Positions 85-33,195 of a stretch of 33,196 bases of DNA are shown here, piece after piece. The notes under the pieces were generated by a model that had not been told where the DNA came from, searched no databases, and saw nothing but the letters and a program-made list of their open reading frames with translations. The stretch is from positions 1-33,196 of IMG/VR virus record IMGVR_UViG_3300022752_003477. One strand, written 5' to 3'. The position numbers and the translations under genes were made by a program. Source of the DNA: a virus. Every line of letters starts with the position of its first letter. The first letter of the stretch is position 1.

Positions 85-111
85 AACTTACTCCTTGTAA
101 GTATATAAACG

Positions 112-119
112 TATTTACC
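112..119 (-). promoter_or_regulatory. Late-type promoter octamer GGTAAATA
   Basis: The minus strand reads GGTAAATA 27 bases upstream of the ATG at 84. It is one base from the GATAAATA form seen before several other genes in this window and resembles the T4 late promoter TATAAATA. It overlaps the stop codon of the preceding gene. It could also be a chance AT-rich match. Confidence 0.35.
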
Positions 120-328: not shown

Positions 329-384
329 TAAAATCTCCTTATTGTTAATTTAGCACTATAATATAGTTTAGTTAATAAAAATGA

Positions 385-1872: not shown

Positions 1873-1928
1873 AATTTCCTCTATCATAGTATAGTATTTA
1901 ATCTTATACTACTACTCTCTGATAAAAA

Positions 1929-2459: not shown

Positions 2460-2462
2460 TAC

Positions 2463-2780: not shown

Positions 2781-2794
2781 TGTTCTCCTCCTTA

Positions 2795-3145
2795 TTAAGA
2801 AAATACAGCATCAATTGTATACCATTGTATAGGGCTAATGCAAAAAAACTGTAGCGATGTATCATTAAACAGTATAAATGCTTCATTTACATTGAGCTGA
2901 TTAATCACTGCTCCAGATCCTGGGTAAACTTTTAAATCTGGTATATCACCGTTTCTAATAATAACAAACATACCAGGATTGGCATCTGGTAATCTAACCC
3001 CTTGACCAGTCCCAACGGTAGAGATATTATTAATTGCGTTAGTTAACAGTGTGGCGGTTGCTTGATTGGTACCTGCCGCAACTACTGCTACGCTTGCTAT
3101 AAAAGTATTTAAATTACCACCAGATGGTGTTACAGTAAGTCCCAT
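2795..3145 (-). CDS. Hypothetical phage structural protein
   Basis: The 116-residue protein begins MGLTVTPSGGNLNTFIASVAVV. Its middle, GTGQGVRLPDANPGMFVIIRNGD, followed by a short strand-rich segment (KVYPGSGAVINQL), is a pattern I associate with small beta-rich virion proteins in marine T4-like phages, but I cannot name the family. AGGAT lies upstream of the ATG. It sits 8 bases downstream of the 1033-residue fibre gene. Its stop lies within the ribosome-binding region of the PAAR gene, so it is part of the same late operon and probably belongs to the fibre or baseplate assembly. Confidence 0.65.
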   Translation of the reverse strand: MGLTVTPSGGNLNTFIASVAVVAAGTNQATATLLTNAINNISTVGTGQGVRLPDANPGMFVIIRNGDIPDLKVYPGSGAVINQLNVNEAFILFNDTSLQFFCISPIQWYTIDAVFS

Positions 3146-3153
3146 ATAATATC

Positions 3154-6625: not shown

Positions 6626-9600
6626 TTATACTCCCATAAACGCGAAAGTTCTGGCCCAATAACTTCCGCTGGTAACAATTTTCCCTACTTGGCTAGTAAG
6701 TTCTTTGCCTAAAACTGTATTAGAACTCAGTACACTTACTCCATCTATTTTGTAAACTTTATTGGCAATGAGATCCATATTTTCACTGCTGGTCCATGCA
6801 TCTGTATTTTTAATCCAATTGAATGTTTTATTTACCGTTGATTTTATAGTAATACCACCATTATTAGCAGTAAAGTCAGTTGGGCCGCCTACACTGAATG
6901 TGATATCACCCGATTTAGGTAAGGTGGCAACTGTAAATGTGAGTCCATTGGCATTACCTATTGAAGTTGCTAATGGTGTGTTATCTGTATTCAATAGTGT
7001 AAACGCAGTTGTGCCTGTTATACCTGCTATTTTATACTGTCTTGGACTAAAATATCCTGTAATACTGCCATTTCCTGGCCCTGTTAATGAGCCTGTTACA
7101 ATCACTATTTGGTCAACTTCCAACGGGGCAGTACTACATGTAAACTGCCCACCGGTTCCTATATTCACATTAGACAATGTAAATGTTGTGCTAATACAGG
7201 TAAATTGATTAGGCCCATCAACACTTAAAATCCTAGCATTGTAACCAAAACTACCTAACTTACCTGCTACAGTTATCTTACTTAGGGCCATTCCTGGGAT
7301 CATACCAGAGGTAGGCGCAGTAACTTCTGTTTGTGGACTACCAGTAGTATCTGTGTAATTAACATAACCAGTTCTTGACACTATGGGCTCGACACTGCCT
7401 AGTTCTATGTTATTATCATCCATCTTGATATCATAGGCATTGAGCGTACTAGATGATCCTGTGACATTTACCTCACCGTTCACCACTAGCTTATTCAATA
7501 TTAAGGTATTTGACCAGTATGGTGCGGAACCACTACTTACTAATACATCATTGGTATCACCAATAGGTAGTTTACTTAAAATAGCCGCATCGCTGGCATA
7601 GATCATATCACCTACTGTGTAACTACCTATATAGGTTCCTCCTTTGCTCACAGGTACAGCACTATTTAAATTACCTGGATTTAAATAGTAGGTTGCGCTT
7701 TGATCATTGAGTTTGCCTGCATTAATGACACCGTCTTTAACAGTAATATTCCCTTTACCATTGCCAGTGCCTACATCAAATTGTCCTCTATCAAATCTAG
7801 CTACACCGAGATTGGTAAAAGCACCATTATCTGTTGATAGACTTTCTTGACCGTCAACTATATCCACATCAAGTGTAATGCTATTGAAATAGTTACTGGC
7901 CACATTAGCCACCATTGTAAAGGTTAACCCAGTTGTACTACCAAGTTGTGTAACTATAGGACTATTGTTAATATTAATTAGGGTAAATGTAGTTGCCTCA
8001 TTGGTAATAGAAATTTTATATTGTGTTGGATCATTGTAACCAATTATTTGTCCTGTACCTGTATTAGTGCCAGTTACGGTAACTATATATCCACTATCTA
8101 GGGGCACATTTATACAACTAAATTGTCCAGCAGTACCTATAATATTAACACCAGCCAGTGTATAATTCAATGTACTAGTTGTAAAATCACTGCCTATTAA
8201 ATTTATAGCACTGTTGGCTGCTTTATTTAAATTTTGTACAGCTACGGCATATCTACTATCACCACGTAGGAAAGTTTTATTATTGGCTGGTGGAATACCC
8301 AATCTACTTGGGCTAATAATACCACTGATAATATTATTGGCTGCTATGCTACTAGCACTGGATATTGACCAGTTTAGATATTTTCGACTGCTGGTGTTTA
8401 TAGCAGCATCTACTCTAATATTTTGTCTAGTAAAGGTTATATTTCCAGATATAACAACTCCATTAATATCACTTTTACCTTTGTTTTGGAAATCAACGGT
8501 ATCAAATACTATGCCGTTGGTACTATCATCGGCAGAAATTTTATCCTCATGTAGAGTAAAACTATTTGTTGTTACAGAACCTACGTAGTATATCTTTCCA
8601 TCATCTAAGTTTGTAGGTAAACTTGGTCCTGTAACACGCAACGATGTTCCTGTTATATAACCATGATTAGCTAGGAAAATTGTATTTTTAACTAGATCAA
8701 TATTAGATTTAATAAATTTTTGAGTTCCTAAACCTGATGATACCAATAGAATTTTTTGTTCTGGTAGTAAATTGTAATTAGCATATAGTTCAATAGTGTT
8801 TATATCAATAAATTTAGCATAATAAACTACACCATTCTGTGGTCCTTGACTAGCACCGCCTATTTCAGCAAAACCGTTATTATCGTATTTTATAGGATCC
8901 CCATTGACTAGTCCATGATTAGGTATAGTAATAGTATCTACACCAACACTGGTATTAACACCATTGTTAGCATCAAAGGTTATTTCCACAACACCAATAT
9001 TAAGTATGCTTTTAGATGTAGCATTAGCATCTTCAATGTAATCTTTCAAGTCTGAAACTTCATTATTTGAAAATTTTACACCGCCGACATTATTGATATA
9101 CAATCTATTTTCAATAGCAGTTATTTCTACAGCGAACCCTCCCGCTCCCCCCGAAGCAGTTTGTAAATTAGCCCCTAATGTTTGACCATCTTTATAACCC
9201 GAACCTCCACTGGTTATATCAAATGATGATACTTGTCCACTAATTACAGTAAAGTCCCCTTTGGCTCCAATACCTGTGCCACCTGTAAGATTGACATTTT
9301 TGAATGTGCCATTTAAATATCCATTTCCATTATTTCTATTAATATTATCGACGGCTCTAATAACGCCTAAAACTAGACCATTTGGTGAATAATTAGTTTT
9401 ATCAATATAACCTTGTGCTTTGGTCAATGAACCAGATACACTGGTGATTCCAGTAAAATCATATGTCTGTGTAGGGTTAAGAATTAAAAATTGACTGGGT
9501 TCAATTTCACTTAGGATCCAATTTGTTGTTTGATTATTGAGGATAGTACCAACAGGCTGTTGTCCTACTGGCACAAGATTATATGTGACTCCATTTATTA

Positions 9601-12600
9601 CTACAGGACTGTTATTAAACTGTATAGCAAAAGTTAGATCAGTGCTGCCTACAACAGCAAAATTTGAATTATTAAGTGATCCAACAATACGCCCACTTGC
9701 CCCTGTAGCTGGTTGAGTGACAAGAGTAAAGTCATCAGCAGTCACATATAACGGATCACCGTTACCATCAACTCCAGTTGACTGAAATCTCAATTCTACA
9801 CTGCTATATGTTTCAGTGCTAATATCACCTGGGACTACATTGGTTGCTGGCACTGTATTAATTAAGTTAATCCTACTACCATATCCATTTGTTTTCCAAA
9901 CTAAGAAATTTCTTATGGGAGGGATTACATCAGGATTAAGCAAACCTAGTGTGTTTAATTGAGGGACAGCACCCGCTAGATTATTTGTAGTAACGTCTCT
10001 GTCTATAAAAGGACCTAATCTGTTTTGTATAAAGCTACGAGTTGCTAATTGAGTACTTAATCTATAGTGTTGTGGGCCGCCTGGTTCGTTGTCACCAAGA
10101 TCAACATCATCACTTAATTCACTAATTTGTACATCGCCTATACTTAATTTCAAGGCATCTAATTCTGCGATACTAACTGTATTAGTGAATGTTACATTAC
10201 CTGTTTTATTTTCTGCCTTAATAAAATCACCGACTTTGAAGTCACCTAATTCATTAGTGCCTGAACTGTATACTCTACCAGGTAAATCATTAACTTGTTC
10301 ATATTCTACTCTAGTCTTACCACCATTTTGAGGTAGGGCATTATAATCTATACCGCTACCAGCATATTCCCAAGTATGAGCACTGCTATTTACAATACTG
10401 GGTCTATGTAACCATATTTGTTTTTCGTAGAGATTAGGTACATTTTCAAATGTTCCCCCACTACCAAATGTACTTCTTACCTTAAATTCAGCTGTAAAAT
10501 AATCCTGTTGATCTATTACATCATTGACTGCTATGCCACCTACTATAGACACACCACTATGATCAGCAGTGATTATACTGCCAATTTGAAAAGGATCACT
10601 GTTACTGGCTACATCTATACTGACTATTAATGCTCTTGTTGTCGAGTCCCAATTTAAAACATAAGCATGATGAGCCAAGGGAACAGTACCAGTTTTTGTA
10701 CCAAATATATCACGCCCAGGAACAAAAGTATAGGTATTAGATGGAAGTGTTAATTTTTGATATGATTTATGATAGCTTACTACTTCATCTACAAAAAATT
10801 CTCGTACATTTTTTACTAATCTATGAGTACCTGTACCAATTCCTAAAATGTCAGCTATCTTAGTTTGACTTTCATCAGTCCATAAACGTAATTGATTATT
10901 ATTCAATCTATCGACATAATAATTTTGTTCATCATCTAACCCAGGTATATTAGGATTATTGTTATTGCTATAACTTACTTTAGTCATGTTTACCAAACCA
11001 TGATTAGTTAAGTTTATCACATTGGTTATTGGGTTAACCAAACTAGAATCAAAATCTACATAATCATTGACACTGAATAATTTATAATTGTTAGTTATGT
11101 CGCCTATATTAGTATATTCAACTTGCTCGGGTACATTATTTGGAAAATTTAATACGCTAATTAATAGATCAAATTTAGATTGAACATATGATGACAAGCC
11201 TGTACTAACTATTTTAGCCAAAGTCAAATCTCTTAGCCGAGTAAAGGCAGCAATATTTTCCTTTTTTTGATTTATTAAGTTTGTGATGGTAGTATTATTA
11301 TATGATTCAGCAGCTTCAATAACTTTGCTATTGCCACCTGATAATACATCGTAGGCCACTGCATCTAGTATAATTTTTGTATCTCTTTCACAGAGGGCAG
11401 CATTATAGGTAAAGGTTGATAGGAATGGTGCTGTTGAATTAGCTATCTGCGCATTAATCCAAACAATTAAATCAGCTGCTAATTCATCTCTCCAAGCATT
11501 GATAATATCATAGGCCTGTCTATAACTTGGTTCTCTTACTCGTATTACATAATGTGGATTTGGTAATTCACCAAATCCTATAGCAGTAATAACACTTTGT
11601 CCTAATATAGTTCCTGATGTAACTACATAACCTTTATTAAAATCAAAAGCATTAGCACTGTAACCACTGGCACGTAGAGCATATTGACCAAAGTTTGTAG
11701 CACTGTTGGTAATACTTAAATACCCGCCACTTTGGCAGTAACTACCATTTAAGCAAAAGATTTGGAAACAGCTAACTATTTGAGCGTAAGCATCGTTAAT
11801 CACACGCCAACCTGTTCCACCAAAACTCAACATGGTAAATGCGTTGGCCACCATTGATTTACCTTGTTGTGGGACACCAGGAATAGTGTTTGTATCTAGT
11901 TCTGCTTCTACTTTATTGAATGGTATGTTAGGTGACTTAACTTTTTTACCATCTACTAGTACACCATTACCGCCTAAGAAACTAATTATGCTACAGTTTT
12001 GAATATATGGTGATGTAGTAATCGTTGGTTTAGTCGTTGGCAAGTTTACATAGCCTACTCTACTGGTTGAGATATCAGTAGGATCATCAAAAGCCACACT
12101 GTATCCAAAAGTAAAGCTAGGTTTGTTATTAACGTCTAGTGCATCTCTGAATGTTATTTCTGTAAAATAACAACCATTACGAACACGTAGCATATCCTTG
12201 CCATTGTTCAATGGTCGTAAGTTTACAGCACGAAGACCTGCTCCAACTACGCTGACATTATCAGGAATGATGATAGGATTATTTTCATAATATTCACCGC
12301 TAGCTACTTTAACAACTATTTTTTTATCTGTAACCTTTTTATTATTATTATAAACCAAACCACTGGCTATTTGTAGAGCACGTTTTATAGTCTTAACTGG
12401 TTTGTTAATACCATCATTTAGATCATTACCATTATCACTACTAACAGAAACCGATCCTCCTCCAAATAAATCAGCACTGATAAATTCTAATCTATCACCG
12501 TCTGTATTAAATGCGAGTATATTTCCATCAATACCTTTAATTGATGGCAGTGTCAAAGTATAACTATTAACAAATTCTGTAGGTGCTCTTAGTCCCACAT

Positions 12601-15220
12601 ATGTAAAACCATTATTCTCATTCTCTCTTAATCTTAATTCACCAGCATTTTTAATAGTTAAATTAGATAAAACGGTATTAGCCAATACCTCTAAGTCCTT
12701 AGTAATACTAACATTGGAATTTACTGTTAAATTGTCTAATGTAACATCTTTGGCAGTAACATCATCTTGAAAATCACTAGTTCCTTGAACTTCTAAATCA
12801 CCTTGTACAGTTACACCTAAAGATGTTGTTAAACTTTGAGCTGTTATATCCTCTACTGTGATATCACCGTTTATAGTTACACCACCAGTAATGCCGACAT
12901 TACCTGTTGCTGTAAGATCTGAAAGTTTTAAGCCGGTATAGTTTGAGCCAGTTTTAAGTTCCCAACGATCATCAGTTTCATTCCAAATGAATCTAGTATC
13001 ATCTAATGTTCCTCGATCAATTTCTATACCACTTTCTACCGAAGTAACACCTGCAGCAGTTTCGCCCTTATTGAGAGTGATCAAATTATCCTTGATATCA
13101 GTATTAGTAGTTTTTAAATATGTCAGTGTACCTTTGACTTCTAGATCACCGTCGACTACTAAATCGCCTTTCACATGAGTGTCCAAGTCAATGGTTAGAT
13201 TATTTTTTACCGTGGTAGTTCCAGAATTTTTACCTATGTTTATTGTAGTAGCATTGCCTGCAAAATTTACAGCACTAGCGACAGTGTTAAAAACATTAAC
13301 TGTTGGTGCATTTGTAGCGATACTTATTGTTCCGTTTAGAGGTTTCCCTAATATATTAAGTTTGCTGTTATCCTGATCATTGCCTATATTAACAGTTGAT
13401 CCAGCACCACCTATATTGGTTGTACTTTGTCCACCATTAGCTATGTTTAGTGATCCCGTTGTTATACTTGAAAATAAATTTACTCTACCTGTTGTAACAT
13501 CGCTGTTTAAATTCACGGTACCATTTACAGTACTGCCAATTATTACACTATTTTGATCTCGTGCTGCACCTATAGATACTATTACACTGTCAGTGGCCTC
13601 TGTTGCTAGATTAACTGTAGTTGCTACTGAAAATACATTTGCCGTTTCAACTGCTGTAGTTCCTAAGTTAAATTCGGTACTCGTACTGGTTATGTCTCCG
13701 CCGTTGACTGCTAGGTCACCTTCTATTGTGACATCATTGCCTACTTCCAAACTACCAGTAGCTGTTTTTCCTGACACTGTTAGATCGTTATTGACAGTTA
13801 AATTAGCACCAAGATTTACATCACCAGTGGTAGTTAATGTACCAGTAGACACTGTAGAAGCTACAACATCTCCTGTTAGGTCACCAAAAACATTACCAAA
13901 AAATTCTGGTGGTGTGTAGGTAGAAGCCAAAGGATTACCACCACTACCATTAAACAATATTATTGTACCATCAGCAGCCTTTATAGCACCTTGGAACCAG
14001 GCATCTTTACCATCTGTTCCGTTTTCTAATATTATGTCCCCATCAGCTGAGAATAAATCGCCTGTGGTAGATCCTGCTATAGTTCCTTCAAAATTTCCTA
14101 CAAATTTTTCAGTGGCTATGATAGTAGTTCCTGTTATTTTGGCAGGTATTTCTTCTCCAATTTCAGTATTGTCAATTTTACCTCCATCTATTTCTATAGT
14201 ACCAAAAGTACTAGTGCCATCACTACTGACATTTCCGCTGACATTACCATAGAATACAGCAGGTTGGTATCCAGGATCACCTATGTTATTGTCACTGCCA
14301 TTTTCTAAAACTTTTCTTATACTGTTATTAGCATAGATATCACCTCTGAATGATCCGCTAATAGATCCTTCTACGTTCCCATAAAATACAGGTGCCTGAT
14401 AACCTCGAGCAGTAGTTTGTCCCCCAGTGCCATTTTCTAAAACCTTGGTGATCCCGTCTTCAGTATAAATATCTCCTAATAATTTTCCTACAAGTTTACC
14501 TTCAAACTTATCTGTGGCAATTACTGTAGTACCTCTTAAATAGGCAGCACTAGTCGCACCTATTGAAGTGTTATCTATTGAACTTTCTTCAATTATAGCG
14601 TTTTTTAGGTAACTACCAGTGAGACTATTGATGTCACCGCTGACATTACCTGTATAGATTGGTCCTGTATTGCTGGAGCCGCTGTCTAATATCAATGCCC
14701 CAGTGCTATTGTAGACATCACCTATTAGGTCACCAAATACATTGCCCTCTACATTACCATTAAATTTTCCATTAATACCAACATTGAAATTTGCTCCGTT
14801 GATAGTTCCACCATTGATTGAGGCTCCAACATACAAATCTTCTGTGATTCCTACTCCACCTTGTACTACTACTGTTCCATTGTTAGGATCAGTGCTAGGT
14901 TGATTAGCGGTAAAAACAACACCTCTAATAAAAGTTGTTAATTCAGAGGCAAATTCAGCTGTGATTTCTCCGTTATTAATAAAATAAATACTGTCTTCAT
15001 CTGTTTCACTATCACCAGTTTCAATATAGGTATCAATATTGATCCTACCTAATTTACCTGAAACTATGGCAAAATCAAGACCTTCCCATTTAGATACACC
15101 ATCACCTATTTTAAAGTTTTTATTGGTTAAATCTATGCCAATTTCACCTTGTGCAAGAGTAGGATTTAACCTATCCCAATTAGATGAAATATCACGTCTT
15201 AATTGAATCCTTTTCGCCAT
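6626..15220 (-). CDS. Giant modular tail fibre protein, 2864 residues
   Basis: The N-terminus (1-50: KRIQLRRD, TLAQGEIGIDL, KIGDGVSKWEGL) matches the Mtd_N-like attachment domain of phage receptor-binding proteins. Residues about 110-480 hold repeats of the type FYGNVxGxhxGDIY followed by LENG. Residues 480-900 are beta-solenoid-like. From about 927 a segment starting SVSSDNGNDLNDG resembles pectate-lyase-type beta-helix domains with N-rich turns. Three NHGL/NHGY modules lie near 1400, 2100 and 2180. Two copies of the GQF/TTFTL module shared with the 1033-residue fibre lie near 2363 and 2688. Near 2527, VSKGGTYIGSYTVGDMIYAS is a common phage fibre motif. GGAG lies 6 bases upstream of the ATG. 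It likely forms a long trimeric fibre; the receptor is unknown. I see no frameshift. Confidence 0.85.
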   Translation of the reverse strand: MAKRIQLRRDISSNWDRLNPTLAQGEIGIDLTNKNFKIGDGVSKWEGLDFAIVSGKLGRINIDTYIETGDSETDEDSIYFINNGEITAEFASELTTFIRGVVFTANQPSTDPNNGTVVVQGGVGITEDLYVGASINGGTINGANFNVGINGKFNGNVEGNVFGDLIGDVYNSTGALILDSGSSNTGPIYTGNVSGDINSLTGSYLKNAIIEESSIDNTSIGATSAAYLRGTTVIATDKFEGKLVGKLLGDIYTEDGITKVLENGTGGQTTARGYQAPVFYGNVEGSISGSFRGDIYANNSIRKVLENGSDNNIGDPGYQPAVFYGNVSGNVSSDGTSTFGTIEIDGGKIDNTEIGEEIPAKITGTTIIATEKFVGNFEGTIAGSTTGDLFSADGDIILENGTDGKDAWFQGAIKAADGTIILFNGSGGNPLASTYTPPEFFGNVFGDLTGDVVASTVSTGTLTTTGDVNLGANLTVNNDLTVSGKTATGSLEVGNDVTIEGDLAVNGGDITSTSTEFNLGTTAVETANVFSVATTVNLATEATDSVIVSIGAARDQNSVIIGSTVNGTVNLNSDVTTGRVNLFSSITTGSLNIANGGQSTTNIGGAGSTVNIGNDQDNSKLNILGKPLNGTISIATNAPTVNVFNTVASAVNFAGNATTINIGKNSGTTTVKNNLTIDLDTHVKGDLVVDGDLEVKGTLTYLKTTNTDIKDNLITLNKGETAAGVTSVESGIEIDRGTLDDTRFIWNETDDRWELKTGSNYTGLKLSDLTATGNVGITGGVTINGDITVEDITAQSLTTSLGVTVQGDLEVQGTSDFQDDVTAKDVTLDNLTVNSNVSITKDLEVLANTVLSNLTIKNAGELRLRENENNGFTYVGLRAPTEFVNSYTLTLPSIKGIDGNILAFNTDGDRLEFISADLFGGGSVSVSSDNGNDLNDGINKPVKTIKRALQIASGLVYNNNKKVTDKKIVVKVASGEYYENNPIIIPDNVSVVGAGLRAVNLRPLNNGKDMLRVRNGCYFTEITFRDALDVNNKPSFTFGYSVAFDDPTDISTSRVGYVNLPTTKPTITTSPYIQNCSIISFLGGNGVLVDGKKVKSPNIPFNKVEAELDTNTIPGVPQQGKSMVANAFTMLSFGGTGWRVINDAYAQIVSCFQIFCLNGSYCQSGGYLSITNSATNFGQYALRASGYSANAFDFNKGYVVTSGTILGQSVITAIGFGELPNPHYVIRVREPSYRQAYDIINAWRDELAADLIVWINAQIANSTAPFLSTFTYNAALCERDTKIILDAVAYDVLSGGNSKVIEAAESYNNTTITNLINQKKENIAAFTRLRDLTLAKIVSTGLSSYVQSKFDLLISVLNFPNNVPEQVEYTNIGDITNNYKLFSVNDYVDFDSSLVNPITNVINLTNHGLVNMTKVSYSNNNNPNIPGLDDEQNYYVDRLNNNQLRLWTDESQTKIADILGIGTGTHRLVKNVREFFVDEVVSYHKSYQKLTLPSNTYTFVPGRDIFGTKTGTVPLAHHAYVLNWDSTTRALIVSIDVASNSDPFQIGSIITADHSGVSIVGGIAVNDVIDQQDYFTAEFKVRSTFGSGGTFENVPNLYEKQIWLHRPSIVNSSAHTWEYAGSGIDYNALPQNGGKTRVEYEQVNDLPGRVYSSGTNELGDFKVGDFIKAENKTGNVTFTNTVSIAELDALKLSIGDVQISELSDDVDLGDNEPGGPQHYRLSTQLATRSFIQNRLGPFIDRDVTTNNLAGAVPQLNTLGLLNPDVIPPIRNFLVWKTNGYGSRINLINTVPATNVVPGDISTETYSSVELRFQSTGVDGNGDPLYVTADDFTLVTQPATGASGRIVGSLNNSNFAVVGSTDLTFAIQFNNSPVVINGVTYNLVPVGQQPVGTILNNQTTNWILSEIEPSQFLILNPTQTYDFTGITSVSGSLTKAQGYIDKTNYSPNGLVLGVIRAVDNINRNNGNGYLNGTFKNVNLTGGTGIGAKGDFTVISGQVSSFDITSGGSGYKDGQTLGANLQTASGGAGGFAVEITAIENRLYINNVGGVKFSNNEVSDLKDYIEDANATSKSILNIGVVEITFDANNGVNTSVGVDTITIPNHGLVNGDPIKYDNNGFAEIGGASQGPQNGVVYYAKFIDINTIELYANYNLLPEQKILLVSSGLGTQKFIKSNIDLVKNTIFLANHGYITGTSLRVTGPSLPTNLDDGKIYYVGSVTTNSFTLHEDKISADDSTNGIVFDTVDFQNKGKSDINGVVISGNITFTRQNIRVDAAINTSSRKYLNWSISSASSIAANNIISGIISPSRLGIPPANNKTFLRGDSRYAVAVQNLNKAANSAINLIGSDFTTSTLNYTLAGVNIIGTAGQFSCINVPLDSGYIVTVTGTNTGTGQIIGYNDPTQYKISITNEATTFTLININNSPIVTQLGSTTGLTFTMVANVASNYFNSITLDVDIVDGQESLSTDNGAFTNLGVARFDRGQFDVGTGNGKGNITVKDGVINAGKLNDQSATYYLNPGNLNSAVPVSKGGTYIGSYTVGDMIYASDAAILSKLPIGDTNDVLVSSGSAPYWSNTLILNKLVVNGEVNVTGSSSTLNAYDIKMDDNNIELGSVEPIVSRTGYVNYTDTTGSPQTEVTAPTSGMIPGMALSKITVAGKLGSFGYNARILSVDGPNQFTCISTTFTLSNVNIGTGGQFTCSTAPLEVDQIVIVTGSLTGPGNGSITGYFSPRQYKIAGITGTTAFTLLNTDNTPLATSIGNANGLTFTVATLPKSGDITFSVGGPTDFTANNGGITIKSTVNKTFNWIKNTDAWTSSENMDLIANKVYKIDGVSVLSSNTVLGKELTSQVGKIVTSGSYWARTFAFMGV

Positions 15221-19278: not shown

Positions 19279-21030
19279 CTAACTTAGAATTTTGTATGTA
19301 TAAGTCAAAGTTCCAAACTCTTTATCAGTTAGATATACATCGTTCCTTGTAGGGGTATTGTACTTATAACTTATCTCTATCTGCCACTGTTGTTTTTTTA
19401 GCACTGGGGTAGCTGTAAATTCTAAAATAATATCTTCATCATCTGTAGGGACACGGGGGCCGCCGCCTTGTACATAGCCTAAATAATCATATTCATCAAA
19501 AAGATTGATCATTGGCGTACCTGTTGGATTAGGGACTAGATTATTGTCAAAAATCGAAGTGTTTCGGGTATCCACAATCACTGTCAAGATACCTTTACGT
19601 AATCTTCTATATTCCAAATTAGGATCACCACTTCTATATAGATAATGAACTTCGATTACACATTGTGTATTAGTATTAGAAAGTGTTTCATGTCTTGGTA
19701 CTGGGAATCTGAATAAATTGATTTCTTGACCAGGGCTTGTAATAGCCGGCATATCCAGTTTGTAGGTAAAATTATTTTGATAATAACTAAAACCAGTAAC
19801 CTCACTCACATATGGAGCCATTTCTAGGATGTTCTCTCCCAATGTCCCTAGGTCAAGATGACGATCACTGAAATCATCAACACTCATATTACCAGGTTGA
19901 TCAAACTCTATTTGTCCAAATGTTGCGTTTTGATTACCGCCAAAATTATTACCAGTATCTTTAATAATGTTTTTGCTACTTAAATTTCCTCTACCCTGCC
20001 ATACCTTAATTGCGTTTCTCTGAATGTCATCAAAACTACAACTGGAGATAATGTTATTTCTGGGTCCGTGAATTTCTCCAAGTAATGGTTCCAAACTAGT
20101 TTTTAAATATCCAAATTGTACTGCAATTTCATGTTTTTTAAATTTACAGTCCCTAAAAATATTGTTTATTATATCACCTTTGGCACTAACACCGTACTTG
20201 AAGGCATTGACATATACTTCAATAAAACTGTTATCTCTACAAGTTATCTGTTCAGTTTTAACTCTCATAGATATGCCTATACTATTAATTCTTGGGGTTT
20301 GGATACCAAAATCTCTAGACCAATCGCTTTTAAGCTCTATTTTACTAAATTCACTATTTCTTACACAGTTCAAATCAAAAGCAGTTGTATCTGTATCAAC
20401 TATTTCCAAGGTAAAATTAGACAGGCTGACAAATTTACATTGATTTAAGTAGTCTATTTGTCTATTATTTTGATCGTTAACAAACACAAAGGCGCTGCCG
20501 GTTCCCTCATATCTAAAAATAGTTCTACCAATGCCTGCACCTATAATTTTTGTGTAACTATATATATAAATTGGTGATTCCAATTTATATACTCCTGGGC
20601 TAAATTCTAATGTAGTCCTGATGTCAACTCTACCACTACCCTGTAAACTATCCTTATACAATCTTTCAATGCCACGATTAATGGCAAGAGCATCATCATC
20701 AATACCAGTACCTCTGACATAAAATGATTTGGCATTTAGTCTATCATCAAGACGATCTTGAATTGATCGTTGATGTCTTCCATTAGGTAAAGTGTAAACT
20801 GGGTTATAGGTATATGTTTCTAAGGAAAAAATATTACTGAACTGAGTTAGTACTTCGACATTACTTTTAGTTTCTGGGCTTCCCACAGCATGACTACCTA
20901 TATAGAGTTGGTTAGTATCTATACACCATGCCATTTCACCGCTGCTAAGAGTAATAGGAAGCGGTGCCTCTCTGTTGGCATCCTTCATATCGCGTCGAAT
21001 TTGAATTTTAGAAATTTGTACTACAGCCAT
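19279..21030 (-). CDS. Tailspike-like protein with beta-helix domain
   Basis: The 583-residue protein starts with an Mtd_N-like segment (KIQIRRDMKDANREAPLPITLSSGEMAWCIDTNQLYIGSH split over residues 8-47) related to the N-terminus of the giant fibre. Residues about 103-125 (FYVRGTGIDDDALAINRGI) match the start of pectate-lyase-3 type right-handed beta-helices, which bind or cut polysaccharides. N-rich strands typical of a helix continue to about 370 (NNIFRDCKFKKHEIAVQFGY and similar). The C-terminal 200 residues look like a beta-sandwich. No catalytic residues could be assigned, so an enzymatic role is open. A GATAAATATCT promoter-like element lies 19 bases upstream. It is probably a receptor-binding or capsule-degrading spike. 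Confidence 0.75.
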   Translation of the reverse strand: MAVVQISKIQIRRDMKDANREAPLPITLSSGEMAWCIDTNQLYIGSHAVGSPETKSNVEVLTQFSNIFSLETYTYNPVYTLPNGRHQRSIQDRLDDRLNAKSFYVRGTGIDDDALAINRGIERLYKDSLQGSGRVDIRTTLEFSPGVYKLESPIYIYSYTKIIGAGIGRTIFRYEGTGSAFVFVNDQNNRQIDYLNQCKFVSLSNFTLEIVDTDTTAFDLNCVRNSEFSKIELKSDWSRDFGIQTPRINSIGISMRVKTEQITCRDNSFIEVYVNAFKYGVSAKGDIINNIFRDCKFKKHEIAVQFGYLKTSLEPLLGEIHGPRNNIISSCSFDDIQRNAIKVWQGRGNLSSKNIIKDTGNNFGGNQNATFGQIEFDQPGNMSVDDFSDRHLDLGTLGENILEMAPYVSEVTGFSYYQNNFTYKLDMPAITSPGQEINLFRFPVPRHETLSNTNTQCVIEVHYLYRSGDPNLEYRRLRKGILTVIVDTRNTSIFDNNLVPNPTGTPMINLFDEYDYLGYVQGGGPRVPTDDEDIILEFTATPVLKKQQWQIEISYKYNTPTRNDVYLTDKEFGTLTYTYKILS

Positions 21031-21049
21031 TTAAATTCCCCTTATCAGA

Positions 21050-21057
21050 TATTTATC
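21050..21057 (-). promoter_or_regulatory. Late-type promoter octamer GATAAATA
   Basis: The minus strand reads GATAAATATCT from 21057 down to 21047, 19 bases before the tailspike ATG. The same 11 bases occur on the plus strand before prkA (28196-28206), which supports a real promoter element. It overlaps the 3' end of the exonuclease gene. Confidence 0.55.
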
Positions 21058-21772
21058 ATAGGCTAGTATAGTACAGTTCCACACGGTCCAACCAACGATG
21101 ACTCCAATAGTCAAAATCCTTACTTTCTAATACAAACTCTTGATAAACCGGATCTCCCCACTGTCCTGGTGCGATTTCTGGGGGTCTAACACACATCATG
21201 ATTACGCCTTTGTTAATATTGGTTCCATAAAGTGCGTTGTGTGCTAGAGCATAGGCTGTTATTTGTAGATAATAATCTGTAATCCATTCCTGTTTTTTAG
21301 GTTTATTACTTTGTTTGAAGTCTAAAATACAGGATTCACCATTGTGTACACCCACACAGTCTGTAGTTCCAGCATAGATACCAGGATAGTAAAGTTGTAC
21401 TTCATTACCCCAAATTTCATCTATGTTATGAAATCCTTCGGCAATGACTTTTTTGGCCATTAGAAGACTTTGTTGGGCATATGGATTACTCACACTGTCC
21501 TTAATACCATCACCTTTAATATAACTTTCTAAAAAGGTGTGCATTCTAGTACCTCGGGCAGCGGCTTCTGTGGTAATAGCTTGAGCCTGTACATGACCAA
21601 CTCTATCACGCCATTCCTTTAAAGCTTGTTTGGCTTCTTCTGGTTTAGTTCGATCTAATATAGTGGTGACACTGGGTACTCGAGATCCGTCTGGGCAGGC
21701 ATATAATCTTTTTCCTGTTGTATCATCTCTGCTTAAATTTTTATAATCGTATTTGGATTTTAATAAGTTCAT
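21056..21772 (-). CDS. PD-(D/E)XK exonuclease, RecB/MGME1-like
   Basis: The 238-residue protein shows the PD-(D/E)XK nuclease core in order: GTRMHTFLE (74-82), E124 in NEVQLYY, D138 in AGTTDCVGV, D151-F-K153 in CILDFKQSNK, and the Q170-x-x-x-Y174 motif in LQITAYA. This matches the single-domain RecB-like exonucleases of marine T4-like phages, which resemble mitochondrial MGME1. The expected role is cutting single-stranded or host DNA, or processing ends in recombination; the exact substrate is unknown. A strong sigma70-type promoter (21778-21805) sits directly before it, so it is probably expressed early and apart from its late neighbours. The first ATG is used; no convincing ribosome-binding site is present. 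Confidence 0.85.
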   Translation of the reverse strand: MNLLKSKYDYKNLSRDDTTGKRLYACPDGSRVPSVTTILDRTKPEEAKQALKEWRDRVGHVQAQAITTEAAARGTRMHTFLESYIKGDGIKDSVSNPYAQQSLLMAKKVIAEGFHNIDEIWGNEVQLYYPGIYAGTTDCVGVHNGESCILDFKQSNKPKKQEWITDYYLQITAYALAHNALYGTNINKGVIMMCVRPPEIAPGQWGDPVYQEFVLESKDFDYWSHRWLDRVELYYTSL

Positions 21773-27459: not shown

Positions 27460-27487
27460 TTGACATTGCTAAATAAGCATGTATAAT
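27460..27487 (+). promoter_or_regulatory. Sigma70-type early promoter for the 27511-28104 unit
   Basis: TTGACA (27460-27465), a 16-base spacer and TATAAT (27482-27487) are both perfect consensus. The spacing is the same as in the exonuclease promoter on the other strand. A strong GGGGAGGAG ribosome-binding site follows just before the ATG at 27511. Confidence 0.8.
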
Positions 27488-27510: not shown

Positions 27511-27807
27511 ATGTTCAATCAACCAGAATTATTCATTGACACTGTACAGAATGCCAAAAAGCAGTGGGTTGAAAAATGTGTTCGTAATGACGATATAAAA
27601 AATAACTGTCATATCTATATTGACGCACAATCAAAATTTTTAAAAACAGCATTGACCGTAGCCGGAGGTATTGCTACCGTTGTAGGCCACGAAATGCTGA
27701 ACACAAAGATTGAAAAAATGTTTAATCCTTTTGGGATAGACTTTTTCAAAGCAGGCTGGGATGCCTGGGCAGAGGCTAACAGAGAAGCCTACTCTCGAAA
27801 ATCCTAA
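27511..27807 (+). CDS. Early protein of unknown function, 98 residues
   Basis: The protein begins MFNQPELFIDTVQNAKKQWV, with a helical middle (IYIDAQSKFLKTALTVAGGIATVVGHEML, in parts) containing a mildly hydrophobic segment, and ends FFKAGWDAWAEANREAYSRKS. The opening and amphipathic helices remind me of phasin-type granule-associated proteins, but I would not assign that name. A perfect sigma70-type promoter and a very strong ribosome-binding site suggest high early expression. It is co-transcribed with the next gene (24-base gap) and closed by the terminator at 28133. Confidence 0.65.
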   Translation: MFNQPELFIDTVQNAKKQWVEKCVRNDDIKNNCHIYIDAQSKFLKTALTVAGGIATVVGHEMLNTKIEKMFNPFGIDFFKAGWDAWAEANREAYSRKS

Positions 27808-27831: not shown

Positions 27832-28104
27832 ATGTCAAATTTTGAAACACCTAAAATGCCAGAAGTTAAATTTAATAAAAATGGGTACGAAATCCGTACC
27901 GAAATACTAGGTATGGCCAAACAAATGGCTGAGTTCGAATACAGTGCCAAGTTTCAAGGATGGGAAATGAGCACTGCTCGCGATGAGAAGACTGGCCAGT
28001 TCGTCACTACGGTAGGGATGCCGCAGGTTCCAGGTTTGGAGCAGATTCTACAGACTGCACAAAAGATGTATGACTTTGTAAATCAAGGTAATAATAAAAG
28101 ATAA
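27832..28104 (+). CDS. Early protein of unknown function, 90 residues
   Basis: The sequence NGYEIRTEILGMAKQMAEFEY, then KFQGWEMSTARDEKTGQFVTT, and VPGLEQILQTAQKMYDFVN is a layout I associate with small hypotheticals of marine T4-like phages. The N-terminal helix and the charged beta hairpin are clear; no catalytic motif is present. GAGGAG lies upstream of the ATG. It is the second gene of a two-gene early unit ending in a terminator. The function is unknown; given its company it may be a host-interaction protein. Confidence 0.65.
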   Translation: MSNFETPKMPEVKFNKNGYEIRTEILGMAKQMAEFEYSAKFQGWEMSTARDEKTGQFVTTVGMPQVPGLEQILQTAQKMYDFVNQGNNKR

Positions 28105-28132: not shown

Positions 28133-28154
28133 GGGGCCCTTGTGCCCCTTTTTT
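28133..28154 (+). terminator. Rho-independent terminator of the two-gene early unit
   Basis: GGGGC (28133-28137), loop CCTTGT, GCCCC (28144-28148), then TTTTTT to 28154. A small extra hairpin, CCGC-ATA-GCGG, precedes it at 28107-28117. It separates the early pair from the prkA operon. Confidence 0.85.
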
Positions 28155-28195: not shown

Positions 28196-28203
28196 GATAA
28201 ATA
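28196..28203 (+). promoter_or_regulatory. Late-type promoter octamer GATAAATA before prkA
   Basis: GATAAATATCT at 28196-28206 is identical to the element before the tailspike gene on the other strand. It lies after the terminator at 28133 and 19 bases before the prkA GTG, so the triad probably has its own promoter with the same timing as virion genes. Confidence 0.55.
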
Positions 28204-28222
28204 TCTAAAATGAGGAAATACT

Positions 28223-30169
28223 GTGTCAAATTTATTAAAATTATTCAAATCAAATTACGATAATACAGTTTTTGATAGCATAAGTATAATGGACTATTTT
28301 AAATTATGTAAAAAAGATCGTATGACCTATGCCACTGCTGCTGAACGTATGGTAGCTGCTATTGGTGATCCAATCATATTAGATACCAGTAAAGACTCAA
28401 GATTGAGTAGAATCTTTACTAATCGCACATTAAGAACTTATCCAGCCTTTAAAGACTTTTATGGTATGGAGGATGCTGTAGAACGTATTGTAGGATACTT
28501 TAAACATAGTGCCCAAGGTCTAGAAGAAAAGAAACAAATACTTTATCTATTGGGTCCAGTTGGTGGTGGGAAAAGTAGCCTTGCTGAAAAATTAAAAGAG
28601 CTGATGGAAGTATATCCAATATACTCATTAGCAACTGAAACTGGGGAGATCAGTCCAGTATTTGAAAGTCCACTAGGATTATTCAATCATCCAGACTATT
28701 ATACAACATTGGAAAAAGAATACGGTATAGAACGTAGATATGTTCAAAGTATTATGAGTCCTTGGGCATTGAAGCGCCTAAAAGAATTTGAAGGTAATTT
28801 AGATAAGTTTAGAGTGATTAAGCTTAAACCTAGTAAGCTAGAACAAATTGGTGTAATGAAGACTGAACCAGGTGATGAGAATAATCAAGATATCAGTGCT
28901 CTAGTGGGTAAAGTAGATATCCGTAAATTAGAAAAGTATAGTCAAAATGATACTGACGCATATAGCTACAGTGGTGGACTATGCCGCAGTAATCAAGGCC
29001 TATTAGAATTTGTAGAAATGTTTAAGGCACCCATTAAAGTACTACACCCATTACTCACTGCCACACAGGAAGGTAATTATGTAGGTACCGAAGCTATCAG
29101 TGCTATTCCTTTCCAAGGCATCGTACTGGCACATAGTAATGAAAGTGAATGGCAGACATTTAGAAATAATAAGAATAACGAAGCTTTCCTAGATCGTATC
29201 TGTGTGATCAAAGTTCCCTACTGCTTGAGGGTGGATGAGGAAAAAAAGATCTATGAAAAGATGATTATGAACAGTGGACTAGAGTCAGCAGCCTGTGCTC
29301 CACAGACTATAGAAATGTTGGCCCAGTTCAGTGTATTAACTAGATTGAAAGATCATGAAAACAGCACTGTATTCAGCAAGATGCGTGTATACAATGGCGA
29401 GAATATTAGAGAAAGTGATCCCAAGGCCAAAAGCATACAAGAGTACAGAGATATGGCTGGCGTTGATGAGGGTATGGATGGCATAAGTACACGATTTGCT
29501 TATAAAATATTGAGCCAAACCTTTAACTTTACACCAGAAGAAGTGGCTGCTGATCCAGTACATTTGATGTTTGTATTAGAAAATGCTATCAAACGTGAAC
29601 AGTTTGGTGAAGAGCGTGAACAAAAATATCTAAACTTTATTAAAAGTGAACTCAGTGCTCGGTACGCAGAATTTTTAGGCAACGAAATACAAAAGGCCTA
29701 TTTGGAAAGTTATGGCGAATACGGACAAAACCTATTTGATCGCTATGTAGAATATGCTGATGCCTGGATACAGAACCAAGAGTTTAAAGATCCAGATACA
29801 GGTTTATTAATGGATCGAAGTCTATTGAACACAGAACTTGAAAAAATTGAAAAACCTGCTGGTATTGGCAATCCCAAAGACTTTAGAAATGAAATTGTAA
29901 ATTTTTGTCTACGGGCCCGTGCCAAAACTGAAAACAATGGTAATAATCCAGTATGGACCAGTTACAGTGTTCTGCGTGATGTTATAGAAAAGAAAATGTT
30001 CAGTCAAGTAGAGGATATTTTACCTGTTATCAGTTTTGAGGGTAAGAAGGATAGGGAGCTTGAAAAGAAACATAACGATTTTATTAATCGTATGCAGGAA
30101 AGAGGCTATACTGGAAGGCAGATACGCAGACTTGTTGATTGGTATATGAGGGTGCGTAAAAGTAACTAG
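28223..30169 (+). CDS. prkA: PrkA-family AAA+ protein (YeaG-like serine protein kinase)
   Basis: The 648-residue length matches E. coli YeaG (644). A Walker A loop GPVGGGKS is at 111-118 in an AAA+ module. A PrkA-typical stretch follows (GGLCRSNQGLLEFVEMFKAP and LLTATQEGNYVG). The C-terminal PrkA domain (about 420-648) includes RYAEFLGNEIQKAYLESYGEYGQ in parts and ends RRLVDWYMRVRKSN. PrkA proteins are described as serine kinases, and some more recently as AAA+ proteases, acting in starvation and stationary phase. The start is GTG, with GAGGA about 8 bases upstream. It is the first gene of a three-gene operon with yeaH (8-base gap) and spoVR. No frameshift or lost motif is seen, so it looks functional. 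Confidence 0.92.
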   Translation: MSNLLKLFKSNYDNTVFDSISIMDYFKLCKKDRMTYATAAERMVAAIGDPIILDTSKDSRLSRIFTNRTLRTYPAFKDFYGMEDAVERIVGYFKHSAQGLEEKKQILYLLGPVGGGKSSLAEKLKELMEVYPIYSLATETGEISPVFESPLGLFNHPDYYTTLEKEYGIERRYVQSIMSPWALKRLKEFEGNLDKFRVIKLKPSKLEQIGVMKTEPGDENNQDISALVGKVDIRKLEKYSQNDTDAYSYSGGLCRSNQGLLEFVEMFKAPIKVLHPLLTATQEGNYVGTEAISAIPFQGIVLAHSNESEWQTFRNNKNNEAFLDRICVIKVPYCLRVDEEKKIYEKMIMNSGLESAACAPQTIEMLAQFSVLTRLKDHENSTVFSKMRVYNGENIRESDPKAKSIQEYRDMAGVDEGMDGISTRFAYKILSQTFNFTPEEVAADPVHLMFVLENAIKREQFGEEREQKYLNFIKSELSARYAEFLGNEIQKAYLESYGEYGQNLFDRYVEYADAWIQNQEFKDPDTGLLMDRSLLNTELEKIEKPAGIGNPKDFRNEIVNFCLRARAKTENNGNNPVWTSYSVLRDVIEKKMFSQVEDILPVISFEGKKDRELEKKHNDFINRMQERGYTGRQIRRLVDWYMRVRKSN

Positions 30170-30177
30170 GGTTATCT

Positions 30178-31449
30178 ATGACCACCATAATTGATCGTAG
30201 ACTGAATCCTAGAGACAAGACTATAAAAAACAGACAAAAGTTTATCAATCGTAGTAGAGAACAAATACGGAAGTCTGTAAAAGAGGCTATTAAAACTGGT
30301 AACATCAGTGACATAGAAAATGAAAAGGTTCGTGTGCGGGTTAAGGGTATTGACGAACCTGAATTCAGTATAAATCCCAAAACTGGTGATAAAGAATATG
30401 TGCTACCAGGTAACGACAAATATGTAGTAGGTGATACTGAACCTAAACCAAAAGGTGGTGAAGGTGAAGGTGGCAACAAAGGTGGATTAGGAACCAGTGA
30501 GGATGACTTTGAGTTCTTATTAAGTAGGGATGAATATTTAGATTTTATATTTGAGGATTTAGAACTACCTGACCTAATTAAAAAACAAATGAAAGATGTG
30601 ACCAAGATCAAACCTAAACGATCAGGTTATAGTAATCAAGGCAATCCAAATCAACTGGACATTATGCGTAGTCTTAAGAATAGTCTAGGACGTAGAATAG
30701 GCCTACAACGTCCGAAAAATGAAGAAATAGAACAACTTGAACAACAACTAGAGGAAGAACAAGACCCTGCTATTAGATTAGAATTAGAAGAACGTATCAA
30801 ACATCTACGCTCAAGACAGATGAGCGTACCTTGGCTGGATCCTTTTGATGTAAGATATAGACACTTTATTCCCAAACCAGAACCTATGACCAAAGCTGTT
30901 ATGTTCTGTATATTGGATGTTAGTGGCAGTATGGGCGAGTTTGAAAAAGATTTGGCCAAAAGGTTTTTTCTTTTATTACATATGTTCTTGTTTAGAAAAT
31001 ACACCAAAGTAGATATAGTGTTTATACGTCATCACGAAACTGCCAAAGAAGTAGACGAACACGAATTTTTTAATAGTAAGGAAAGCGGAGGAACCTTGGT
31101 CAGTGAAGCATTAAAGTTGGCCAATAAGATTATCAAAAATCGTTATAATGTAAATGATTATAATATCTATGTAGCACAATGTAGTGACGGAGATAACTTT
31201 GAACGGGATAAAGGTCCTGCCACAGAGCAGGTGCTGGCCCTATTACCTAAAGTTCAATATATGGCCTATCTAGAGATAATTAGCCAAATTAAACAACAAT
31301 TTGGTTATCCTATGACAGACCTATGGAAAGTATACCAACCTTTAACATCAACTCATAAAAATTTAAAACTACAAAAGGCCAGTGAAGCTAAATTGGTATG
31401 GAAAGTGTTTAAAGAGCTTTTTGGTAGGGAAAAATTACACTATGAGTAA
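30178..31449 (+). CDS. yeaH: YeaH/DUF444 protein with VWA-like domain
   Basis: The 423-residue protein matches the length of E. coli YeaH (427). A basic N-terminus (IDRRLNPRDKTIKNRQKFINR, in parts) typical of DUF444 is followed by a Gly-rich linker (about 88-106) and SVPWLDPFDVRYRHF. The VWA-like domain has the metal-ion site DVSGSMG at 247-253, where D247, S249 and S251 form the DxSxS motif, and later GGTLVSEAL and CSDGDNF. In bacteria it is encoded and acts with PrkA, probably as adaptor or regulator. The start ATG is 8 bases after the prkA stop. Its end overlaps spoVR by 8 bases, so all three are translated together. Confidence 0.93.
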   Translation: MTTIIDRRLNPRDKTIKNRQKFINRSREQIRKSVKEAIKTGNISDIENEKVRVRVKGIDEPEFSINPKTGDKEYVLPGNDKYVVGDTEPKPKGGEGEGGNKGGLGTSEDDFEFLLSRDEYLDFIFEDLELPDLIKKQMKDVTKIKPKRSGYSNQGNPNQLDIMRSLKNSLGRRIGLQRPKNEEIEQLEQQLEEEQDPAIRLELEERIKHLRSRQMSVPWLDPFDVRYRHFIPKPEPMTKAVMFCILDVSGSMGEFEKDLAKRFFLLLHMFLFRKYTKVDIVFIRHHETAKEVDEHEFFNSKESGGTLVSEALKLANKIIKNRYNVNDYNIYVAQCSDGDNFERDKGPATEQVLALLPKVQYMAYLEIISQIKQQFGYPMTDLWKVYQPLTSTHKNLKLQKASEAKLVWKVFKELFGREKLHYE

Positions 31450-32938
31450 ACTTATATATGATACCAATGATTGGTCTTTTCAACGACTGCGTGATGCCGA
31501 AGATGCTATAAGACAAATAGCTGTTGATGAATTAAGATTAAACACATATCCTAATCAGATAGAGATCATAGGCAGTGATCAGATGTTAGATGCCTATAGT
31601 AGTAATGGACTACCTCTGATGTACAACCATTGGAGTTTTGGCAAACATTTTATACAACAAAATCATAGCTATCGTAAAGGGTTCAGTGGCTTGGCCTATG
31701 AGATTGTGATTAATAGCAACCCTTGTATCAGTTACTTAATGGAAGAAAACTCAATGACCATGCAGGCCTTGGTCATTGCTCACGCTGCCTATGGACATAA
31801 TCATTTTTTTAAAAATAATTATTTGTTTAAACAGTGGACTGATGCCGAAGGTATATTGGACTATTTGGCCTTTGCCAAAAAATATATTAATCAATGTGAA
31901 GAAAAATACGGTGTAGATCTTGTAGAACGCACATTAGATGCTTGTCATAGTATAATGAACTATGGGGTAAATAAGTACAAGCGTCCTGCCAAAATAAACA
32001 AACAAAAAGAATTAGAACAACAAAAAGAACGCATAGCCTATGTACAGGCACAGGCCAATGTGTTATGGTCTACACTGCCTAAAAAAGATGCCAAGGCCAA
32101 AGATCAAGAAAATAATCGTTTTCCTCTTGAGCCTGAAGAAAATATTTTATACTTTTTAGAAAAACACAGTCCTAAATTAGAAGCTTGGCAGAGAGAATTA
32201 TGCCGCATAGTGAGAAAGATCAGTCAATACTTCTATCCTCAAAGACAAACTAAATTGATGAATGAAGGTTGGGCTAGTTTTGTTCATTATTATGTAATGA
32301 ATAGACTGTGGGAAAAGGGACAAATCAGTGACGGTAGCTATTTAGAATTTATACATAGCCACAGCAGTGTGCTTAATCAACTCAATTATAATCACAAATA
32401 TTATAATGGTTTTAATCCTTATGCTTTAGGCTTTGCTATGTTTAATGAAATACGTCGCATATGTACAGAGCCCACAGCAGAAGATAGAGATATATTTCCT
32501 CATCTAGTTGACCTAGACTGGTTAGAAGTATGTTTGGATGCTGTGGAAAATTATAGAGATGAAAGTTTTGTTATACAATTCTTAAGTCCAGCCTTGGTTA
32601 GAAAGTGGGGCTTGTTTGAAATACAGGATAAAAATGACGCTGATCATTTTAGAATCAATCACATACAAGATCCTAGAGGATTTGCTAAAATTAAGGAAAG
32701 TCTCAGTAGACATTACAGTTTGGCTAATCTACAGCCTAATATTCAAATCGTTGATGCTAATCTTAAGGGCAGTAGAAAATTAGAATTAATTTACACAAGT
32801 ATGAACAAAAAAGAACTTAACCCAAATAAAGACAAGGTTATTAAACATATAGAATTTTTATGGGGATATGATGTAGATTTGAAGATGGAAGGTTTGGTTA
32901 CCACACCAATCTACACCATTTCTAATTTTTACTTTTAA
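31442..32938 (+). CDS. spoVR: SpoVR/YcgB family protein
   Basis: The 498-residue protein matches E. coli YcgB (510). It has AHAAYGHNHFFKNNYLF (about 113-129) and NEGWASFVHYYVMNRLWEKG followed by HSSVLNQ and NPYALGFAMFNEIRRI, the defining SpoVR blocks. SpoVR is needed for the spore cortex in Bacillus. In non-spore-formers it is linked to the PrkA/YeaH system, and its biochemical role is still unclear. The ATG at 31442 overlaps the yeaH stop by 8 bases; a GTG 60 bases upstream in frame lies inside yeaH and is less likely. Its stop overlaps that of the convergent glycosyltransferase. It is intact throughout. Confidence 0.92.
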   Translation: MSKLIYDTNDWSFQRLRDAEDAIRQIAVDELRLNTYPNQIEIIGSDQMLDAYSSNGLPLMYNHWSFGKHFIQQNHSYRKGFSGLAYEIVINSNPCISYLMEENSMTMQALVIAHAAYGHNHFFKNNYLFKQWTDAEGILDYLAFAKKYINQCEEKYGVDLVERTLDACHSIMNYGVNKYKRPAKINKQKELEQQKERIAYVQAQANVLWSTLPKKDAKAKDQENNRFPLEPEENILYFLEKHSPKLEAWQRELCRIVRKISQYFYPQRQTKLMNEGWASFVHYYVMNRLWEKGQISDGSYLEFIHSHSSVLNQLNYNHKYYNGFNPYALGFAMFNEIRRICTEPTAEDRDIFPHLVDLDWLEVCLDAVENYRDESFVIQFLSPALVRKWGLFEIQDKNDADHFRINHIQDPRGFAKIKESLSRHYSLANLQPNIQIVDANLKGSRKLELIYTSMNKKELNPNKDKVIKHIEFLWGYDVDLKMEGLVTTPIYTISNFYF

Positions 32939-33195
32939 TCTCTAGCATCAACTAGATTGTTCTTGAATATGTTCCAGGCTTCTTCCCAAGTCCAACGTAG
33001 GCTACCTTTATATACACTAGGTCTATCCAAGGCCAAAGCACGGGTAATAGCCTCGTTCAAGTCTTTATCCATATATCCTGTGATACCCTCATCTATTACA
33101 TCTAATGGACCACTCACAGGATATGCTGCCACAGGAGTAGCACAGGCCATGGCTTCTATCATAACTAGGCCAAATGTTTCCCAACGTGACGGAAA
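32935..33195 (-). CDS. GT4-family glycosyltransferase, C-terminal part, cut by the window edge
   Basis: The visible 86 residues start FPSRWETFGLVMIEAMACAT, the classic GT4 ExFGLxxxEAMA motif that binds the sugar-nucleotide donor, then PVAAYPVSGPLDVIDEG and a tail with SLRWTWEEAWNIFKNNLVDARD. The YPVSGPLDVI wording is typical of mannosyltransferase-like GT4 enzymes of Proteobacteria. The frame runs off the right edge, so the N-terminal domain lies outside. Its stop overlaps the spoVR stop (convergent). The donor and acceptor cannot be named from this part. Confidence 0.85.
   Translation of the reverse strand, partial: FPSRWETFGLVMIEAMACATPVAAYPVSGPLDVIDEGITGYMDKDLNEAITRALALDRPSVYKGSLRWTWEEAWNIFKNNLVDARD

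Follow-up and report, generated by a model that had tools for sequence, protein, structure and literature searches.

A distinct phage lineage of the bacterial prkA-yeaH-spoVR operon, probably under late phage control

The viral record IMGVR_UViG_3300022752_003477 of IMG/VR, analyzed here as the complete record of 33,196 bases (hereafter the window; open reading frames (ORFs) called in six frames, domains assigned by Pfam), carries the three genes prkA, yeaH and spoVR, which make up a genuine viral counterpart of an operon known from bacteria, distinct in lineage and probably under phage control. We show that this triad has been maintained, complete and as a co-evolving and selected set, among large T4-type and jumbo myoviruses of one lineage. 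A first reading of the window, made by a model from the letters alone (the sequence-only reading), had described the operon as complete, carried by a phage and preceded by a late-type promoter, and this description is well supported by a phage clade found with all three genes, a shared promoter core, relatives encoding the T4-type capsid protein gp23 and purifying selection. Regarding function, the best explanation overall, in which we place about even confidence, is that the phages own the triad as a late AAA+/von Willebrand factor A (VWA) remodelling machine serving slow, nutrient-limited infections.

The three genes are co-directional. The first, prkA (yeaG; 28223-30169, + strand), has a GTG start preceded by an AGGA ribosome-binding site and encodes a 648-aa AAA+ ATPase of the PrkA family; yeaH (30178-31449, +) encodes a 423-aa DUF444 VWA protein with a metal ion-dependent adhesion site (MIDAS) motif, and spoVR (ycgB; 31442-32938, +) a 498-aa protein of the SpoVR family. 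With the ATG at 31442, which is the spoVR start fitting the relatives, the spacing initially proposed, namely 8 nt between prkA and yeaH followed by an 8-nt overlap of yeaH and spoVR, is retained. The claim that all three proteins are full length with their key motifs was likewise confirmed by Pfam coverage, NCBIfam cut-offs and motif inspection. PrkA spans positions 2-357 of 358 of AAA_PrkA (583 bits) and 2-255 of 255 of the PrkA C-terminal domain (233 bits), YeaH positions 2-418 of 418 of DUF444 (PF04285), and SpoVR positions 1-405 of 407 of SpoVR (PF04293) and 1-51 of 55 of SpoVR_C (PF24755). Each protein also exceeds the cut-off of its NCBIfam equivalog (PrkA, NF011999, 1180 bits vs 576; YeaH, NF003707, 525 vs 396; SpoVR, NF008737, 763 vs 679). 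In PrkA, the Walker A motif GPVGGGKSS, which 50 of the 52 phage PrkA proteins and all 42 bacterial ones share, the Walker B-type motif LEFVEMFKAP and the sensor AHSNE are intact, as are the VWA MIDAS of YeaH (DxSxS...T...D, present as DVSGS, GGT and SDGD) and the His/Glu blocks of SpoVR, in which H114, H119, H169, E275 and H282 are invariant across 42 sequences. Most sites that are invariant in bacteria are retained by the window proteins (255/267 in PrkA, 80/86 in YeaH and 119/126 in SpoVR). A sequence search of solved structures returned 9xip for PrkA and none for YeaH or SpoVR; the AlphaFold model of SpoVR (mean predicted local distance difference test score, pLDDT, of 80) gave no significant match in a fold search of the PDB and one match, A0A3Q8HYQ4, in a viral structure library.

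In what follows, L numbers designate the loci found and G numbers the contigs of the relatives (G012 being the contig of L013). How often the three genes co-occur in phages had been put forward as a check, and the full same-order triad was found in 84 viral loci, corresponding to 79 distinct IMG/VR contigs once five repeats were dropped. Viral loci missing a gene are all cut by a contig end, with the sole exception of L262, the only long viral locus in which prkA-yeaH is not accompanied by a spoVR within 8 kb (its PrkA is 56% identical). An independent search starting from SpoVR gave the same picture, 66 of 68 loci holding the full triad and the other two being cut at the contig edge. The nearest relatives found are viral contigs, PrkA from L002 being 85% identical, and within the closest group of the window identities are 51-63% for YeaH and 64-70% for SpoVR, compared with 38-47% and 48-55%, respectively, for bacteria. 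The phage genes are also more tightly packed, with median prkA-yeaH and yeaH-spoVR gaps of 11 and -4 nt, compared with 25 and 8 nt for the bacterial loci. The carrier contigs include some of 100-578 kb, and the operon lies inside the contigs of the relatives, not at their edge. Strong matches to the T4-type capsid protein gp23, full or near-full in length, were obtained in five contigs (G012, E 8e-144; G020; G024; G027; G037), and terminase genes are also present on carrier contigs. The operon has a DNA polymerase at ~4 kb in L011 and PhoH nearby in L012, and in L005, L006 and L007 endonucleases of the HNH, GIY-YIG and SegE types are inserted between operon genes, an invasion of a kind typical for phages. 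We also observed a PstS-like phosphate-binding protein (PF12849; L013:8132-9124) ~0.9 kb upstream of prkA in L013, whose phage is the 164-kb one with gp23.

The triad could in principle be a prophage edge, a chimera or passenger DNA devoid of phage function, a danger already foreseen in the sequence-only reading, and we regard this as highly improbable. Such situations do occur, as illustrated by Enterobacter phage LAU1 and ~45 IMG/VR loci, whereas the clade of the window is phage-only in three genes, the relatives carry the triad inside long gp23 phage contigs, the guanine-cytosine (GC) content of the operon matches its surroundings in the window, and the ratio of nonsynonymous to synonymous substitution rates (dN/dS) is far below 1. 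A prophage edge or chimera was ruled out for the window on the grounds of GC content, gp23-bearing relatives and phage-only clade, and the triad is shown to be a genuine phage operon rather than a piece of bacterial DNA lying at the edge of a contig. As for the other cases, the 'complete' genome of LAU1 (MN688132.1, L162) has an enterobacterial-type yeaG/yeaH at one end (bases 1-3308), and the ~45 loci (L168-L210, L212) have an enterobacterial-type yeaG/yeaH or yeaH at one contig end. All of these are most likely host DNA beside a prophage, not to be counted as phage-borne; they represent a recurring prophage-boundary artefact and perhaps mark an integration hot spot beside yeaH.

Phylogeny and sequence divergence tell a consistent story. 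In single-gene trees, the window belongs to a phage-only clade of 10 phages supported by SH-like approximate likelihood ratio test (SH-aLRT) values of 100 for PrkA, 99 for YeaH and 100 for SpoVR, so that the proteins of the window fall in a phage clade, a point that the sequence-only reading had proposed to check, and do not group singly with a host chromosome. In a concatenated tree of 56 rows, from which four viral outliers (L258, L163, L259 and L271) were omitted, a single branch (SH-aLRT 89) separates 26 core phage copies from 30 Pseudomonadota copies, and the same large phage clade was recovered by FastTree from 98 rows; there, L258 and the huge phage L163 group with bacteria, while the rows of L259 and L271 are long and unstable in their placement. 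The distance matrices of the three genes correlate with r of 0.945-0.954 (maximum of the Mantel null, 0.25), which indicates that the three genes have travelled together. Between close phage pairs, dN/dS is 0.01-0.14 for all three genes.

The setting of the operon in the window, between a terminator and a convergent gene, is as first described. Upstream, an intrinsic terminator (28133-28148, +; stem GGGGC/GCCCC followed by T6) insulates it from an adjacent unit made of two small ORFs (27511-27807 and 27832-28104) that gave no family match. This terminator closes the unit and a perfect (12/12) sigma-70-type promoter (27460-27487, +) serves it; judging from these signals, the unit is transcribed separately from the operon, and probably early. 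At the other side, a glycosyltransferase group 1 fragment (32935-33162, -) is convergent, lies at the contig end and overlaps spoVR by 4 nt. Between the terminator and prkA stands the T4-type late-promoter-like element GATAAATATCT (28196-28206, +), which ends 16 nt before the prkA start codon. It is present exactly twice in the 33 kb, the second copy (21047-21057, -) preceding a 583-aa gene (19279-21030) at the same distance of 16 nt from the start codon. The sharing of this element by the two genes had been noticed from the sequence and holds; the name 'tailspike' given to the second gene does not, as it finds no PHROG or NCBIfam match, and we dropped it. More broadly, all four window copies of GATAAATA and 7 of the 10 copies of ATAAATA (both strands) lie no more than 60 nt before a gene of the matching strand, a placement beyond chance, and TAAATA precedes 12 of 29 window genes while occurring in 3.3% of window 60-mers. 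At the sequence level, the window thus has what is expected of T4-type late promoters, a NATAAATA-like element just upstream of genes.

Across the relatives, the 60 nt before prkA contain TAAATA in 26 of 52 phages (expected, 6.4 by shuffling and ~1.5 from random 60-mers), those before yeaH or spoVR in none of 53, and those before bacterial prkA in 1 of 67; these counts are to be read knowing that the core was picked after inspecting the upstream sequences and that the phages are related, hence not independent. The commonest form is CTAAATA (15/52 vs 0.8 expected). The strict form ATAAATA (5/52 vs 2.8 expected) was rejected as a common element across phages, and the looser TAAATA was used instead. 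In the phage of L013, the capsid gene gp23 has the same kind of late-promoter element; in four phages of the sister group, none was seen within 90 nt of gp23. Sigma-54-like sites, whose loss might have pointed to a rewired control, show no excess upstream of the phage operons (2/51; shuffle, 1.0) and a weak one in bacteria (11/67; shuffle, 4.0; reverse strand, 7). With the core before prkA in half of the phages, before yeaH and spoVR in none and before bacterial prkA only once, the triad is probably transcribed as a single unit, under a phage control of the T4 late type.

A late-type promoter would also suit a role in virion assembly or maturation, in which the AAA+/VWA pair would assist capsid, tail or baseplate proteins as a late chaperone. 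The operon does sit inside structural genes in one lineage (a PAAR/lysozyme spike, tape measure-like and prohead-type genes ~1-7 kb upstream), and structural genes are found on the contig of the window too. However, the location changes from lineage to lineage, near the DNA polymerase in L011, PhoH in L012 or the PstS-like gene in L013, and the proteins remain equivalogs of a bacterial system that makes no virions, with most of the bacterial invariant sites kept, so that we judge such a role rather unlikely.

What is known of the bacterial operon guides the functional interpretation. In Rhizobium etli, prkA-vWA-spoVR form one operon (CH02817-CH02815), and prkA is the most ppGpp (guanosine tetraphosphate)-induced gene, in a sigma-N-dependent manner (PMC3188799). 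In E. coli, YeaG supports survival of nitrogen starvation (PMC4664914). DUF444 occurs in 49 of 200 sampled genomes from the phylum of a Pseudomonadota reference. The statement that the triad is chromosomal in bacteria holds in part, large rhizobial plasmids also carrying prkA, the first gene of the operon.

Starting from the observed genes, order, lineage, selection and promoter-like element, we infer a complex, an activity, a late timing and a benefit as follows. By analogy with bacteria, the three phage proteins would work together: PrkA would form an ATP-driven AAA+ ring unfolding or remodelling client proteins, and the VWA/MIDAS domain of YeaH would let this protein serve as the adaptor delivering the client, as may be compared with other AAA+/VWA pairs, RavA-ViaA and MoxR-CoxE. 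SpoVR, with its invariant and perhaps metal-binding His/Glu blocks, would act as partner or effector. In bacteria, the operon is turned on at nutrient exhaustion by ppGpp, sigma-N or sigma-S. Since the host copy needs starvation signals and the host transcription that a T4-type phage shuts off, such a phage would supply a copy of its own, placed under its late control. This copy would keep the proteome of a starved or long-infected cell working while virions are produced, the most likely benefit being the survival and output of slow, nutrient-limited infections. The suggestion of the sequence-only reading that the phage uses late a copy of a host stress/dormancy switch is, by the same analogy, reasonable.

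A different use of the same machine would be counter-defence, the phage blocking dormancy or abortive infection and keeping toxins off while virions form. The repression of the mqsR/mqsA and dinJ/yafQ toxin-antitoxin modules by E. coli YeaG (PMC4664914) and the strong conservation of the phage copy, under selection, would fit. The E. coli effect is nonetheless transcriptional and indirect, a late promoter would come late for halting abortive infection, and a survey of the neighbouring genes (no PADLOC screen was made) revealed no consistently linked toxin-antitoxin or defence genes, the single exception being a zeta-toxin/polynucleotide-kinase-like gene confined to one lineage; we thus consider counter-defence unlikely, while still worth weighing. 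As for SpoVR, it owes its name to spore cortex formation in Bacillus (cited in PMC4605624), and together with the late-type operon this could suggest a unit altering the host wall late in infection, for the timing of lysis or the exclusion of other phages. Against such envelope remodelling, SpoVR has no known enzymatic activity, its predicted model matches no solved structure and many bacterial carriers, such as rhizobia, form no spores, which makes this idea improbable.

Several observations weigh against the picture of a late, phage-owned remodelling machine. No capsid gene or similar structural hallmark was recognized in the 33-kb linear fragment that is the window. Half of the phages have no recognizable TAAATA before prkA, so that by this test late control is not universal. 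PrkA alone favours two phage groups, yet a single phage clade is not rejected (approximately unbiased test, p-AU 0.26; for YeaH, p-AU 0.36), and it is not certain that all phage copies are united at depth, L258, L259, L271 and L163 falling outside the core; from the trees, the phage group acquired the operon once, possibly twice, long ago, and several separate acquisitions come in addition. In the bacterial literature, the R. etli prkA mutant has no clear stress phenotype (PMC3188799), and the biochemistry of PrkA is disputed, the protein being described as a protease in B. subtilis while highly purified PrkA from B. anthracis had neither protease nor kinase activity (PMC13001217).

The phage triad resembles the bacterial operon (yeaG-yeaH with ycgB in E. 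coli, and that of R. etli) in gene families, order, equivalog-level scores and motifs, and differs from it by its own clade, its tighter packing, its frequent late-promoter core and, in several phages, interruptions by homing endonucleases. Annotations of single genes of the operon already exist for a few phages, and spoVR has been reported among viral 'sporulation' genes. The Ralstonia jumbo phage RsoM2USA, judging from its published gene list, encodes SpoVR (ORF28) and a 648-aa PrkA (ORF30) on one strand, separated by a yeaH-sized gap (ORF29), and this list files the genes under cell-cycle and signalling functions with no mention of an operon (PMC8504454). The Thermus phages MN1, Lalka, phiLo and phiYS40 are isolates with distant PrkA (serine kinase) and vWA homologues, together with SpoVR in MN1, Lalka and phiLo; their PrkA is just 25-28% identical and the order in MN1 is vWA-spoVR-prkA; these sequences likely represent a separate acquisition. 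Three huge phages (LR756502, LR745206 and LR756504, ~640 kb) have all three genes, with PrkA 58-62% identical; LR745206 differs in grouping with a bacterial branch, and LR756502.1 (642 kb) shows a rare split of the unit, prkA-yeaH (273834-277133) and spoVR (519965-521401) lying ~243 kb apart. PHROGs holds families for each of the three proteins, the best match of each having no stated function. In the literature covering PrkA, SpoVR and phage, with subscription journals and preprints outside the scope, we found no description of a conserved late triad.

In oxygen-minimum-zone viromes, spoVR was reported as the most abundant sporulation-related viral gene and was treated as a lone spore gene (PMC8940887), whereas here such viral spoVR comes third in the triad in nearly all cases, which calls its reading as a spore gene into question. 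The retention of all three parts under strong selection and phage-type control implies that the three proteins are needed together. The bacterial operon is widespread and strongly induced by starvation, and its compact phage version offers a simple system to find the job of the three proteins. In a broader and more speculative view, which we find possible but doubtful, large T4-type and jumbo phages would have domesticated PrkA-YeaH-SpoVR as a dedicated late function, either dormancy/proteome control or virion maturation, so that many 'sporulation genes' of ocean viruses would be machine parts and phages would provide a genetic handle on the bacterial system.

Among the genes near the triad, a Fe(2+)-trafficking protein (PF04362, YggX-like; L069:13086-13421) and its homologues lie ~200 nt downstream of spoVR in 14 loci (L021, L023, L043, L044, L069 and relatives); being confined mainly to one phage lineage, this neighbour was not used as a clue to metal chemistry. 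Elsewhere in the window, a 2,864-aa tail fibre protein is encoded at 6626-15220 (- strand), and a 500-aa protein (385-1887) joins a glycosyltransferase-17-like N-terminus to a DUF6445/phage 'minor coat protein' (phrog_1644) C-terminus. Finally, the exonuclease at 21056-21772, of which other carriers also have a homologue in the vicinity of the triad (a cluster with 16 such loci), is 45-46% identical to named close relatives that include those of Cronobacter phage GAP32, Pectobacterium phage CBB and Xanthomonas jumbo phages, a hint of a jumbo lineage of the Rak2/XacN1 kind.

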